NCBI GenBank assembly: GCA_017551905.1
Contig: JAFZKK010000065.1
Location: 1-56,292 of the forward strand
DNA length: 56,292 nt
Reading direction: 5' to 3'
Source of the DNA: Salinivirgaceae bacterium
GTDB lineage: Bacteria > Bacteroidota > Bacteroidia > Bacteroidales > SZUA-534
Part shown: in pieces, positions 3,751-53,781 of the stretch
Layout of the letters: every line of letters starts with the position of its first letter
Position numbering within the stretch: the stretch's first letter is position 1
Position numbers and translations under genes: made by a program
The notes under the pieces: model-generated
Told to the model about the DNA's origin: nothing
What the model saw: the letters and a program-made list of their open reading frames with translations, nothing else
Databases searched by the model: none

Positions 3751-3787
3751 GTAGAGACGCGCCATGGCACGTCTCTACGTTTTTTTG
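3751..3787 (+). terminator. Palindromic repeat acting as probable terminator of the adhesin gene
   Basis: GTAGAGACG (3751-3759) and CGTCTCTAC (3770-3778) form a 9-bp stem around a centre containing GCCATGGC. The right arm is followed by G and a run of T, so the hairpin has the form of an intrinsic terminator. It is a full member of the palindrome family also present at 53692 and 53754. Confidence 0.6.
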
Positions 3788-3939
3788 TGGTGTATCGCGT
3801 TTTTTTTGGGTTGCGCCCTGCGGGCGGAAATTGTTATAAAATTGATTCTAAAAATTATACAAAATTTTAAAAATCAATTTTTATAAATTTTCTATTGAAT
3901 TTTGTTGAAATTTCTCGCAAAGCGATAAGCCCAAAACCA

Positions 3940-4118
3940 GCCCCAACGGGGCGGCATAACATAGGCAGGGGCGTAAGCCCCTGTTTTGTTGTTGCCACCC
4001 ACCTAACCCGGAACGGGTGGCACAATAAAAATGTGTCACGCTTCGGAGTTCATTATTTGTGGCTGACGTCCAATCCGGGGTTCACACCCCGGCCTGTGAT
4101 ATGTCACGCCTTCGGCGT
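3940..4118. repeat. Array of six short hairpins, probable non-coding repeat element
   Basis: Six small inverted repeats follow one another: GCCCC-AAC-GGGGC (3940-3952), CAGGGGC-GTAA-GCCCCTG (3966-3983), ACCCG-GAA-CGGGT (4006-4018), a degenerate ACGC-TTCG-GAGT (about 4038-4049), CCGGGG-TTCACA-CCCCGG (4075-4092) and ACGCC-TTC-GGCGT (4106-4118). The stretch is much richer in G and C than its surroundings. An open frame of 95 codons crosses it on the plus strand, but it has no recognisable fold and its composition is explained by the hairpins. From 3788 to 3939 I see only AT-rich sequence. Confidence 0.7.
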
Positions 4119-4127
4119 TGTTTTGGG

Positions 4128-49636: not shown

Positions 49637-50494
49637 ATGACCGAAAACGAAATCATATTATACCAACCCGACGAAGCCGTTAAACTTGAAGTGCGGTTGA
49701 GTGATGAGACAGTGTGGCTGACACAGCAACAAATGACGGTGCTTTTTGAGACCACAAAACAAAATGTCAGTCTTCATATAAATAACATATTCAAAGAGAA
49801 TGAGTTATCGCCAAATTCAACTGTCAAGGATTACTTGACAGTTCAAAAAGAAGGCAACCGAACTATTAAAAGAATACAAAAATACTACAATCTCGACGTC
49901 ATTATTTCAGTTGGCTATCGCGTTAAAAGTCCGAGAGGTACCCAATTCAGAATATGGGCAACAGGCATATTAAAAGATTATCTTTTAAGAGGATACGCAT
50001 TGAATAGCCGAATTGCCAACATTGAGGACCGACTTGAAACACAACAAAAAATACTTGAAGAGCATTCTAACAAAATCGACTTCTTTGTGCGCACATCGCT
50101 GCCGCCTGTCGAGGGAATTTTTTACGACGGGCAGATGCTTGAGCCGTTTGCCTTTGTCAACAATCTGATTCGCTCGGCGCGGAAACGCATTGTGCTGATT
50201 GACAATTATGTTGATGAGACCGTTTTGCTGCGGTTGGCCGAACGAGCCAAAAACGTGACTGCAAAAATCTACACGCAACAGACTTCGCCGTCGTTCGATG
50301 TGGCGCTGGCGCAGCACAATAATCAGTACGAACCAATAGATTTGTGTATCTTTACAAAGTCGCACGACCGATTCCTGATTATCGACAACGATGTGTACCA
50401 CATTGGCGCGTCAATCAAGGATTTGGGCAAGCGATGGTTTGCTTTTTGCAAGATGCAAATGCAGGCCGATGAGATGATAACGAGATTGATTTAG
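49637..50494 (+). CDS. RhuM-type DNA-binding protein with phospholipase D-like C-terminal domain
   Basis: The protein has 285 residues. The N-terminal part (about 10-110: VRLSDETVWLTQQQMTVLFE, KQNVSLHINNIF, YNLDVIISVGYRVKS, FRIWATGILKDYL) matches the RhuM family. A short coiled coil follows (about 113-140). The C-terminal part (about 145-275) contains IVLIDNYVDETVL and HDRFLIID, an HxRxxxxD variant of the HxKxxxxD phospholipase D motif at residues 243-250, then GASIKDLG. Only one such half-site is present, so activity would need a dimer. RhuM proteins lie in pathogenicity and defence islands; the exact role is unknown. Location next to a restriction enzyme suggests defence. Confidence 0.82.
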   Translation: MTENEIILYQPDEAVKLEVRLSDETVWLTQQQMTVLFETTKQNVSLHINNIFKENELSPNSTVKDYLTVQKEGNRTIKRIQKYYNLDVIISVGYRVKSPRGTQFRIWATGILKDYLLRGYALNSRIANIEDRLETQQKILEEHSNKIDFFVRTSLPPVEGIFYDGQMLEPFAFVNNLIRSARKRIVLIDNYVDETVLLRLAERAKNVTAKIYTQQTSPSFDVALAQHNNQYEPIDLCIFTKSHDRFLIIDNDVYHIGASIKDLGKRWFAFCKMQMQADEMITRLI

Positions 50495-50542: not shown

Positions 50543-50583
50543 TAATAAACTAAAACATTAACATACAAGGCATTATCTATTAT

Positions 50584-50790
50584 TCACGTTCAAAAGAAAA
50601 AAGTCCGCTAAACTGATTTTCTTACGAATCGGATAATAATGTTCACGGCATAGTCCATTAGTGATGCTCGCCTACAATATTTTAAGATAAATGCTCGCGT
50701 TTCGGCGTGGGTAATATCTATATTGTAGGGCGGGGTTTCTTAGCGGACTTCCCCGTGAACGTGAGTAGAGAGGCCGGCGCCTTTCTTTTT
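50584..50790 (+). ncRNA. Strongly structured element, possible non-coding RNA or leader of the restriction enzyme
   Basis: Nested inverted repeats span this gene-free region. TCACGTTCA (50584-50592) pairs with TGAACGTGA (50756-50764); AAGTCCGCTAA (50601-50611) pairs perfectly with TTAGCGGACTT (50740-50750). CCTACAATAT (50671-50680) pairs with ATATTGTAGG (50720-50729) and extends by CTCG/CGGG past a bulged G. A side hairpin CTGATT/AATCGG lies at 50613-50632. GTTCACGG (50641-50648) can pair instead with CCGTGAAC (50753-50760), giving a second fold. AGAGAGGC-CGGC-GCCTTTCT (50767-50786) followed by TTTT looks like an intrinsic terminator. The strand is uncertain: on the minus strand the TTAGCGGACTT arm is followed by TTTTC. 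No known RNA family recognised. Confidence 0.5.
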
Positions 50791-50841
50791 CTGGTTCAAT
50801 GATTTGTGTTGGTAGTTAGTGCCAGCTAAACTATTAACACT

Positions 50842-53664
50842 ATGACACCAAAAGAACAAGCAAAGGCAGCCAAGAGCTTCGCCGAAACGTGGAAGGACAA
50901 AACCAGTGAGATTCAACACGCACAATCGTTTTGGACAGCATTGTTGCGCAATGTATTCGGTATAGAGGATGTAGAGAACTTTATTGAATTTCAAAGTCCG
51001 GTTGTAATCAAAAACACAGGCCACATTGATGGCTATATTCCTGCGACAAAAGTGCTGATTGAGCACAAAGGAGCTGATGTCGATTTGTTAAAAGAGGCCA
51101 GGCAAAGTGATGGCGCAATGCTGACACCATTTCAACAAGCGAAACGCTATGCCGACGAAATGTCAAATACTAGGCGACCCGATATAATTGTGGTCTGCAA
51201 CTTTCACGAGTTTCATATTTACGACCTCAATAAAGAAGGAAAAGACAGGTATAAACCTGATGTGGTTTTGTTGAAAGACCTTGAAAAAGAATATTATAGG
51301 TTATCATTTTTGGTTGACGAGACAAATGTCCACTTGAATAAGGAACAAGAACTCACTTTCAAATCGGGCGAATTGGTAGGGTTGCTCTACGACAAACTGA
51401 AAGTGCAATATGGCGATGAGTCGGATGAGAACTTAAAGAATCTCAATAAGTTATGCGTACGTTTGGTATTTTGTCTTTATGCTGAAGATGCTGGCATTTT
51501 TGGTAAGAAATCGATGTTTGGCGACTATTTGAAACGGTTCAATGCCGACAGTTTGCGCGATGCCTTACTCAATTTGTTCCGCATTCTCGACCAAAAAGAA
51601 AATGAACGTAGCAAATACGAAAAGCCGGAACTTCTTGAATTCCCGTACGTTAATGGTGGTTTGTTTTCCGGTGCTACACTTGACGAGATTCCTCAACTGA
51701 CCGAAGAAATAAAAACGCTTTTGGTGACCAAAGCCAGCGACGATTTCGATTGGAGCCAAATCAGCCCGACTATTTTTGGCTCACTTTTCGAATCGACACT
51801 AAATTTGGAGACGCGGCGGAGTGGTGGAATGCATTATACGTCTATCGAAAACATTCACAAGGTGATAGACCCGCTGTTTATGAACCAACTTAACGAAGAA
51901 TTTGCTACTGCAAAAGCAATAAACACTAACAAAAAAGCAAAAGTCAAAGAAAAGCAAGACGCATTAAAAGGTTTGCAAGATAAAATCAGCAAACTTCAAT
52001 TTCTTGACCCAGCTTGCGGAAGCGGCAACTTCTTGACTGAAACCTATTTGAGCTTACGTCGCCTGGAAAACAAAATACTTAAAGAATTAAGCGGAGGCAC
52101 GGGCTATCTCGATTTAGGCGATGTTATAAAAGTGAAAATCAACCAATTCTATGGTATTGAGATTAACGATTTTGCCGTGGCCGTTGCCAAAACAGCATTA
52201 TGGATTGCCGAAAGCCAGATGCTTGCCGAAACCGAAGGCATTGTTAATCAAAACTTTGATTTTCTACCACTTAAATCGAACGCAAACATAGTGGAAGGCA
52301 ATGCTTTAAGAATGGACTGGAATGATTTATGTCCAGCCAATGAATTGTCATATATTATTGGTAATCCGCCATTTGTTGGTAGTGCCAGGCTCTCTGACGA
52401 GCAAAAACAAGATAGGGCATTGCTTTTTGGAGAAAAAGGAGGTGAACTTGATTACGTAGCTTGTTGGTATAAGAAGGCAGCAGATTATGTTGGTGACAAT
52501 CTTATTTGCAGCGCTTTTGTTTCAACAAATTCGATATGTCAAGGACAACAAGTCTTTCCCCTTTGGAATGATTTGATAAATCAAGGATTTAAAATAGATT
52601 TTGCATATCGTACGTTCCGTTGGGATAATGGTGCTAAAGGCGAAGCACACGTCCATTGCGTCATCATAGGATTTTCGCGCACAAAAAGATACCCAATAAA
52701 ATTAATATTCACATCTGATAATCAAACAATTGTTGCTAAAAACATCAACGGGTATCTTTGTGATGCCCCGGACATACTTATTCAAAAAAGAAATGAGCCA
52801 TTGCCTAATGTACCAGTTGTGATAAAGGGGTATCAGCCCACAGATGGCGGTTTTCTGATTTTAGATGACAGTCAGAAAAAAGCATTGATAAATAAAGAGC
52901 CTGAAGCTGCAAATTGGATAAAACCACTTATTACTGCAAAGGAATATATAGCTGGCAAAAAACGTTGGTGTTTATGGCTTGTTGACATTTCGCCCAAACA
53001 ACTAAATAGTATTGATGGTATAAAAAAGAGAGTTGCGGCTTGTAAAGAATGGAGAACCAATCAAACAAAAACAGGTGATGCTTATAAACTAAAAGACATT
53101 CCATATCTTATGCGACCGTGCAAAAAGTACAAAGGTGGTTCTTTTATTGTTCTTCCATTACATACAACAGAAAACAGAAAATATATCCCAATGGGATTTG
53201 TTGAAGAAGGAAGCATTCCTGGAAATAGCGTTTCCATTGTTCCCAATGCGACTTTGTATGATTTTGGCATATTGACATCAATTGTTCATATGGCTTGGAT
53301 GCGTGTAGTTTGCGGAAGGATAAAATCAGATTATAGATATTCCGTCGAGGTGGTTTACAACAATTTCCCTTGGCCAAAACTCAATGATAAACAACGAGAA
53401 AAAATAGAGCAAACAGCTCAATTAATTCTTGATGTTAGAAACAAATATCCAGATTCGTCATTGGCAGATTTTTATGATAATACCAGTATGCCCGTTGAAT
53501 TATTAAAAGCTCACGAGGCAAATGATAAAGCAGTAATGGAAGCATATGGGTTTAAGCCAACAATGTCAGAAACGGATATTGTTACAGAGTTATTTAAAAT
53601 GTACGAGAAACTAACCGCCAACCAGCCCGAGACCAAAACCAAAGGCCGGAAAAAGGCGAAATAA
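50842..53664 (+). CDS. MmeI-like type IIG restriction-modification enzyme
   Basis: The protein has 940 residues, the usual size for the family. One chain combines cleavage, methylation and target recognition. The N-terminal nuclease shows D63, E74 and K76 in HIDGY and LIEHKG (D-x10-ExK). A helical connector follows, then the adenine N6-methyltransferase with motif I FLDPACGSGNFL (about 387-398) and motif IV NPPF (about 507-510). The target-recognition part covers about 620-830, with NFPWPKLNDKQREKIEQTAQ starting the C-terminal helical domain. Such enzymes methylate one strand at their site and cut about 20 bases away. The target sequence cannot be predicted by eye. No separate methyltransferase or specificity gene is present or needed. 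Confidence 0.9.
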   Translation: MTPKEQAKAAKSFAETWKDKTSEIQHAQSFWTALLRNVFGIEDVENFIEFQSPVVIKNTGHIDGYIPATKVLIEHKGADVDLLKEARQSDGAMLTPFQQAKRYADEMSNTRRPDIIVVCNFHEFHIYDLNKEGKDRYKPDVVLLKDLEKEYYRLSFLVDETNVHLNKEQELTFKSGELVGLLYDKLKVQYGDESDENLKNLNKLCVRLVFCLYAEDAGIFGKKSMFGDYLKRFNADSLRDALLNLFRILDQKENERSKYEKPELLEFPYVNGGLFSGATLDEIPQLTEEIKTLLVTKASDDFDWSQISPTIFGSLFESTLNLETRRSGGMHYTSIENIHKVIDPLFMNQLNEEFATAKAINTNKKAKVKEKQDALKGLQDKISKLQFLDPACGSGNFLTETYLSLRRLENKILKELSGGTGYLDLGDVIKVKINQFYGIEINDFAVAVAKTALWIAESQMLAETEGIVNQNFDFLPLKSNANIVEGNALRMDWNDLCPANELSYIIGNPPFVGSARLSDEQKQDRALLFGEKGGELDYVACWYKKAADYVGDNLICSAFVSTNSICQGQQVFPLWNDLINQGFKIDFAYRTFRWDNGAKGEAHVHCVIIGFSRTKRYPIKLIFTSDNQTIVAKNINGYLCDAPDILIQKRNEPLPNVPVVIKGYQPTDGGFLILDDSQKKALINKEPEAANWIKPLITAKEYIAGKKRWCLWLVDISPKQLNSIDGIKKRVAACKEWRTNQTKTGDAYKLKDIPYLMRPCKKYKGGSFIVLPLHTTENRKYIPMGFVEEGSIPGNSVSIVPNATLYDFGILTSIVHMAWMRVVCGRIKSDYRYSVEVVYNNFPWPKLNDKQREKIEQTAQLILDVRNKYPDSSLADFYDNTSMPVELLKAHEANDKAVMEAYGFKPTMSETDIVTELFKMYEKLTANQPETKTKGRKKAK

Positions 53665-53691: not shown

Positions 53692-53719
53692 GTAGAGACG
53701 CGATTAATCGCGTCTCTAC
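53692..53719. repeat. Perfect 28-bp palindrome of the GTAGAGACG family
   Basis: GTAGAGACG (53692-53700) and CGTCTCTAC (53711-53719) enclose the self-complementary centre CGATTAATCG, so all 28 bases are palindromic. It lies 28 bases after the MmeI stop codon. Confidence 0.85.
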
Positions 53720-53753: not shown

Positions 53754-53781
53754 GTAGAGACGTAGCGCGCTACGTCTCTAC
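53754..53781. repeat. Second perfect 28-bp palindrome of the GTAGAGACG family
   Basis: The arms GTAGAGACG and CGTCTCTAC are identical to the copy 62 bases upstream, but the centre is TAGCGCGCTA, again self-complementary. Each copy is preceded by a similar short phrase (TGTATTGTAGAGACG). Confidence 0.85.

Follow-up and report, generated by a model that had tools for sequence, protein, structure and literature searches.

Genomic context and structure of the RNA element

The window analyzed here is the whole 56,292-nucleotide (nt) stretch of DNA from a Salinivirgaceae bacterium, in which a structured RNA element occupies positions 50570–50791 of the + strand, between a RhuM-family gene and an MmeI-type IIG restriction enzyme/methyltransferase. 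The sequence and coordinates recorded in the initial annotation are correct, but the gap between the two genes, given there as 207 bases, measures 347 bases, and the RNA fills 50570–50791 of it. The + strand of the element folds at −81.8 kcal/mol compared with −54.1 ± 4.2 kcal/mol for shuffled sequences (z −6.5, 0 of 200 shuffles), and the − strand gives a fold z of −4.7. The genes and parts at the locus are as follows.

49637–50494, + strand: RhuM-family gene (Pfam Virulence_RhuM), upstream and co-directional
50570–50791, + strand: whole structured RNA element; covariance models R1/R2 match 50570–50789; 116 non-redundant copies
50577–50591, + strand: P1 5′ strand, CTA....TCACGTTC; partner 50757–50768
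50601–50611, + strand: P2 5′ strand, AAGTCCGCTAA; partner 50740–50750
50613–50632, + strand: P3 side hairpin; paired in 81.5% of cells
50641–50648, + strand: P1alt 5′ strand, GTTCACGG; partner 50753–50760
50671–50729, + strand: P4 long hairpin; lower stem variable (50671–50680/50720–50729), tip conserved (50693–50701/50704–50712) and 93.7% paired, with double changes
50704–50712, + strand: P6 5′ strand, which is the 3′ side of the P4 tip, GGCGTGGGT; alternative partner 50773–50781, with 8 of 9 pairs formed in the window
50730–50735, + strand: P5 5′ strand, GCGGGG; partner 50751–50756
50740–50750, + strand: P2 3′ strand, inside the P5 loop (pseudoknot)
50751–50756, + strand: P5 3′ strand, CCCCGT, also part of P1alt
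50757–50768, + strand: P1 3′ strand, GAACGTGAgTAG
50769–50790, + strand: terminator-like hairpin and T-rich tract; stem 50769–50774/50779–50784, 86% of cells paired; 50773–50781 doubles as the P6 3′ strand
50806–50840, + strand: second hairpin just before the start codon, GTGTTGGTAGTT/AACTATTAACAC
50842–53664, + strand: downstream gene, MmeI-type IIG restriction enzyme/methyltransferase (Pfam MmeI domains; PADLOC REase_MTase_IIG, E = 0)

The stems first listed for this gap stand, as does the terminator-shaped hairpin with its T run, while P5, P6 (between the P4 tip and the terminator) and the hairpin before the start codon had been overlooked. The sequence ATGCTCGC, noted as occurring twice (50664 and 50691), is common to relatives in its second copy, at the P4 tip, and its first copy lies in a variable stretch. 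The gap had also been described as lacking an open frame, and across the 114 copies checked there is no conserved reading frame inside the RNA; scattered short ATG open reading frames (ORFs) occur in 42 of them at no fixed position, and a leader-peptide attenuator was rejected because no conserved short ORF precedes the terminator.

Covariation and mutually exclusive pairings

Covariation was measured on a MAFFT alignment of 102 copies made from sequence alone; every sequence is counted, whether or not its change arose independently, and relatedness is only partly removed by the shuffle and slide controls. P1 is 99.6% paired and P2 93.9% paired, with double changes in five of eight and seven of nine pairs, respectively. 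P5 forms a pseudoknot with P2, since its loop contains the P2 3′ strand, and has 15 double-change cells compared with 3.1 ± 1.5 after shuffling. P1, P2 and P5 together have 289 double-change cells, compared with 79.5 ± 6.8 when shuffled and at most 49 when slid. The proposal that two folds exclude each other is upheld, as both covary: P1 pairs 50757–50764 with 50584–50591, and P1alt pairs 50753–50760 with 50641–50648. P1alt is paired in 89% of cells, has 45 double changes compared with 16.9 ± 3.0 shuffled, and is incompatible with P5 and with the inner part of P1.

In P4, the tip is conserved and the lower stem is not. The 3′ side of the tip (GGTGTGGGC) is complementary to the terminator loop and 3′ arm (GCTCGCACC), with which it can form helix P6. 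The P6 positions pair in 97.2% of cells and show 76 double changes, compared with 19.4 ± 5.6 shuffled and at most 22 when slid; in L026 and L097 all nine P6 pairs are kept, and the aligned P4-tip pairs are down to 4–5 of nine. P6 is mutually exclusive with the P4 tip and with the terminator hairpin. The P4 tip and P6 are iso-energetic, with medians of −14.0 and −13.9 kcal/mol, as would be anticipated for a poised switch. The local hairpin of the terminator is weak (−2.5 kcal/mol) and shows some covariation. The full structure has 364 double-change cells compared with 118 ± 9. The absence of covariation, which had been named beforehand as an outcome that would speak against a structured element, was not observed, since P1, P2, P5, P1alt and P6 all covary.

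Family size and distribution

A first covariance model, built from 13 copies, found five copies in the bacterium's own genome and had matches in 9 of the 20 family genomes and 28 of the 393 order genomes searched; among 395 genomes drawn from the phylum, a later model matched the own genome alone. The BLAST search that had been recommended recovered close relatives within the genus, and at other places in the bacterium's own genome it recovered sequences with conserved ends and a variable middle. Meanwhile, a 24-base pattern matched more than 117 contigs, whose titles all name Bacteroidales, Bacteroidia or families belonging to them; most are from rumen or hindgut metagenome-assembled genomes, and nearly all of the 80 pattern-matched contigs examined contain a full covariance-model match. 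In total, 116 non-redundant copies of this large family were examined, all in Bacteroidales and at most five per genome, in a sample skewed to the canonical subfamily and to rumen metagenome-assembled genomes; no copy was found in the phages, plasmids and viral contigs searched.

As the initial annotation had recognized no known RNA family, Rfam 15 was searched, and neither the window element nor 20 relatives matched at the gathering score; with the window element at an expectation value (E) of 10, the best sub-threshold match had E 1.3 and lay on the opposite strand. Nothing in the literature searched describes a structured leader for restriction-modification genes. The main text of the 2010 and 2021 surveys contains no restriction- or methyltransferase-linked motifs, and an unnamed earlier listing is possible in their supplements. 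The RNA family matches no described RNA family.

Promoters, upstream genes and the second hairpin

The motif TAnnTTTG is the sigma-ABfr −7 consensus (PMC7366714). It lies 45–95 nt upstream of the RNA in 55 of 106 copies, compared with 2 and 5 of 106 in control stretches. In the window, no TAnnTTTG occurs within 150 nt before the RNA; there, as in many copies without the motif, a co-directional gene (RhuM, zeta-like kinase, nuclease-like and others) ends 40–125 nt upstream, and the upstream RhuM gene and the window RNA probably share one transcript. In the window (49637–50494), L083, L093 and L095, RhuM or nuclease-like genes stand just 5′ of the RNA, as if inserted between promoter and leader.

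The downstream ORF is on the same strand, with its start a median of 45 nt past the RNA (101 copies), and inspection by eye of the interval from the T tract to the ATG revealed no promoter-like site. A second hairpin of 6–17 bp is found in this leader in 97 of the 101 copies and mostly ends 0–5 nt before the ATG; its stem sequences differ and the pairing is kept. Its loop usually has TGC, complementary to the RNA 5′ GCA, and carries GTCG in four GACAT-type RNAs and TGTTGC in two GCAACA-type RNAs, which is suggestive, and only suggestive, of pairing between the loop and the RNA 5′ end.

Downstream genes and module exchange

The first downstream gene was classified in 101 copies by sequence clusters and by Pfam search of representatives. 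A restriction-modification gene comes first in 85 copies (11 of these assigned by motif alone) and a surface-type enzyme in 13.

EcoRI-like methylase, usually followed by a GmrSD/HNH endonuclease: 57 copies
Unlisted protein of about 815 amino acids, methylase-like motifs read by eye: 11 copies
MmeI-type: 6 copies
C5 methylase (HaeIII type): 2 copies
N6_Mtase: 2 copies
N6_N4 methylase: 2 copies
Tsp45I, type III Mod, ResIII-HNH, Eco57I-type and D12: 1 copy each
Sulfatase/phosphoethanolamine-transferase-like: 5 copies
GT25: 2 copies
GT2: 3 copies
DUF2334: 2 copies
GDSL: 1 copy
First gene assigned to neither class: 3 copies

The family of about 815 amino acids (L184:1757–4195(−), L017:3774–6215, L018:2718–5222(−)) has the motifs DCCAGTGN and NPPY, and the members tested had no Pfam, NCBIfam or PDB match. 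In L117, L118, L185, L200 and L222, a short helix-turn-helix-like ORF and not an enzyme lies 3′ of the RNA. The annotated representatives of the downstream genes include no reverse transcriptase, the partner by which a retron noncoding RNA would be recognized. The RNA was also considered as an obligate part of the downstream enzymes and rejected: by descriptor or covariance model it was found before about 4–6 of the 16 EcoRI-like methylases, and of the roughly 18 MmeI enzymes whose upstream sequence was long enough, only that of the window has it. The RNA is an add-on, missing from many of the order's EcoRI-like methylases and from nearly all of its MmeI enzymes.

Comparison of related sites indicates that the RNA and its second hairpin behave as an exchangeable module ending at the start codon. 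The window and G002 are 93% identical over a stretch that begins 38 nt 5′ of the RNA and ends at the start codon; they have nothing else in common, and the genes that follow are unrelated. Similarly, G000:C137 and G007:C12 have in common a flank, the RNA and the leader hairpin as far as the start codon; beyond it they diverge into a glycosyltransferase and an 815-amino-acid protein, respectively, and rejoin in a common flank. Conversely, G000:C77 and G001:C83 have different RNA subfamilies at one site, before a related gene. As near-identical RNAs stand before unrelated genes, the centre of the RNA is not gene-specific. In the empty-site comparison, the neighbouring genes differed, and no clean empty site, from which target duplications could be read, was found.

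In G007, a different RNA before a different restriction pair replaces the window RNA at the window's site. This RNA and those of G006:C132, G001:C110, G105:C3 and G097:C34 retain the P1-P2-P4-P5 layout and P6, although their sequences are almost unrelated, and are candidates for a superfamily with the canonical RNAs. The descriptor alone is insufficient for them because their scores (66.5–72) overlap the top of the null (maximum 69), and the attribution also draws on the similarity of their leaders, on their place in front of restriction genes and on P6. The G007:C97 RNA equals L272 and L146:2205–2600, L273 equals G006:C132, and L275 equals G001:C110; the same architecture before restriction or methylase genes is seen in L272, L273, L275, L282 and L283. 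In addition, a clade of about 160 nt (L335–L344, 5′ start GCGTTAGCTTTTATTC) precedes large secreted-looking proteins, type III Mod and others; its carriers are G008:C1, G009:C34, G000:C71, G004:C123, G005:C151, G002:C19, G370, G360, G217 and G242. Attribution of the divergent RNAs and of this clade to the wider family is weaker than for the canonical family.

Proposed mechanism and alternative explanations

The element probably acts in cis as a leader RNA of exchangeable anti-phage and surface-modifying genes, with transcription attenuation as its most likely mode. Comparison of the copies supports all helices, their mutual exclusion, the position, the promoter placement and the module exchange. 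The features of an attenuator are present, namely an upstream promoter, a co-directional downstream gene and conserved exclusive helices that include a terminator, and the early suggestion of a switch-like regulatory leader of the restriction enzyme is favoured by the covariation of both folds, the position and the promoter placement.

Transcription would begin upstream, from the Bacteroidetes-type promoter or together with the upstream gene (RhuM in the window), and the nascent RNA would fold into a compact core of P1, P2 and P5, in which the P2 3′ strand passes through P5, or else adopt the exclusive P1alt fold. We infer an off state in which the 3′ side of the P4 tip is paired within P4 and the terminator hairpin is free to form, and an on state in which the same strand pairs with the terminator loop and 3′ arm to form P6, which would let RNA polymerase continue into the restriction gene. 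The hairpin before the start codon is likely a second, translational gate, and the fold would be set by some signal, such as phage infection or another cue.

Several observations weigh against this mechanism. Most copies have a weak local terminator hairpin, four leaders have no detectable second hairpin, P6 has just 4–5 bp in a few divergent copies, and the support for pairing of the 5′ end with the loop is only suggestive. Both states contain pseudoknots, and no ligand is indicated. Moreover, the T tract directly follows P6, and the polarity could be the reverse, because P6 might itself be the terminator stem.

A cis leader of reversed polarity, in which P6 (9 bp, then the T tract) would be a long-range terminator stem and closure of the P4 tip or P1alt would prevent termination, appears unlikely. 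It would explain why TTTCTTTT directly follows the P6 3′ strand in canonical copies and why T7 follows it in several clade II copies with a weak local hairpin. However, P6 spans about 70 nt including P1, P2 and P5, which is unusual for a terminator stem; L272, L273, L275 and L282 have a strong local hairpin whose loop P6 uses, and the local hairpin also covaries to some extent.

A free-standing small RNA that acts in trans and is released at a terminator of its own, with the downstream gene expressed by read-through or from an unrecognised promoter, is improbable. Many copies do have their own promoter and a terminator-like end, the fold is compact, the copies are diverse in sequence, and P6 and P1alt could belong to a mature fold. 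However, the RNA is co-directional with the gene and lies about 45 nt from its start codon, the leader hairpin travels with it up to a break at the start codon, and copies also lie 3′ of co-directional genes. Furthermore, the downstream proteins are unrelated, and thus no common protein partner is apparent.

That the element acts as DNA, as a folded recombination site or a miniature inverted-repeat transposable element (MITE) that moves genes, is highly improbable: the copies are patchy and multiple, with different genes at one site and different sites in one genome, but the compensatory changes preserve G-U pairs and pseudoknots, as is typical of RNA, the promoter and T tract are placed as for a transcript, and viral contigs, phages and plasmids have no copy. 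The small mobile element with terminal inverted repeats considered at the outset, like a MITE or transposon, was rejected, since no common 3′ end or terminal repeats were seen and the copies stand before a co-directional gene at fixed orientation and spacing.

Comparison with known systems

Transcription attenuators and riboswitch expression platforms (trp-type 1:2–3:4 versus 2:3) resemble the RNA in having a promoter, a leader, exclusive pairings that involve a terminator and a gene just 3′. Unlike them, the RNA has no leader peptide or known ligand, its core is pseudoknotted, one leader family serves many unrelated genes, and the exclusion is derived from covariation alone. JUMPstart/ops (RF01707) and the eps-associated RNA (RF01735), both polysaccharide-operon leaders, are similar in that one element is common to unrelated surface genes. 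They act on transcript elongation. Compared with these two, the RNA has no Rfam match, belongs to another phylum, precedes mostly restriction-modification genes and has a covarying antiterminator-like helix. The type III toxin–antitoxin RNA ToxI is likewise a pseudoknotted RNA with a terminator directly before a potentially harmful gene; however, the RNA here is a single unit without tandem repeats, followed by unrelated methylases, endonucleases and surface enzymes and not by one RNase family (ToxN/CptN/TenpN), and a type III system was therefore rejected. Bacteroidales-1, Bacteroides-1, Gut-1 and other gut motifs in Rfam (PMC2864571) are likewise structured intergenic RNAs of Bacteroidetes or gut metagenomes, and none of them matches the window or the 20 relatives at gathering scores.

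Other features of the window

Three palindromic intergenic repeats, GTAGAGACG...CGTCTCTAC, lie at 3751–3778, 53692–53719 and 53754–53781 (0 expected by chance); they are also found near relatives and are possibly a dispersed repeat. Two Rfam matches to Acido-Lenti-1 (RF01687) lie on opposite strands of this Bacteroidales genome, at 3939–3984 (−) and 4074–4119 (+), and part of this region recurs in L146 and L150.

Biological significance

Known RNA leaders serve metabolism, ribosomal proteins and polysaccharide operons. It is tentatively proposed that the RNA is a dedicated Bacteroidales riboregulator, a pseudoknotted switch with an antiterminator-like helix that could place nearly every restriction-modification type and phage-receptor-modifying enzymes under one RNA logic, for infection sensing or bet-hedging; it would move between genes as a module whose boundary is the start codon, and the wider family would keep the architecture only. 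Being portable and bounded by the start codon, the RNA lends itself to a search for its signal with a reporter in a laboratory Bacteroides strain. The RNA may represent a common RNA control of phage-resistance genes, and if it controls expression, it would offer one testable handle on how gut Bacteroidales restrain dangerous DNA-cutting enzymes and surface variants.
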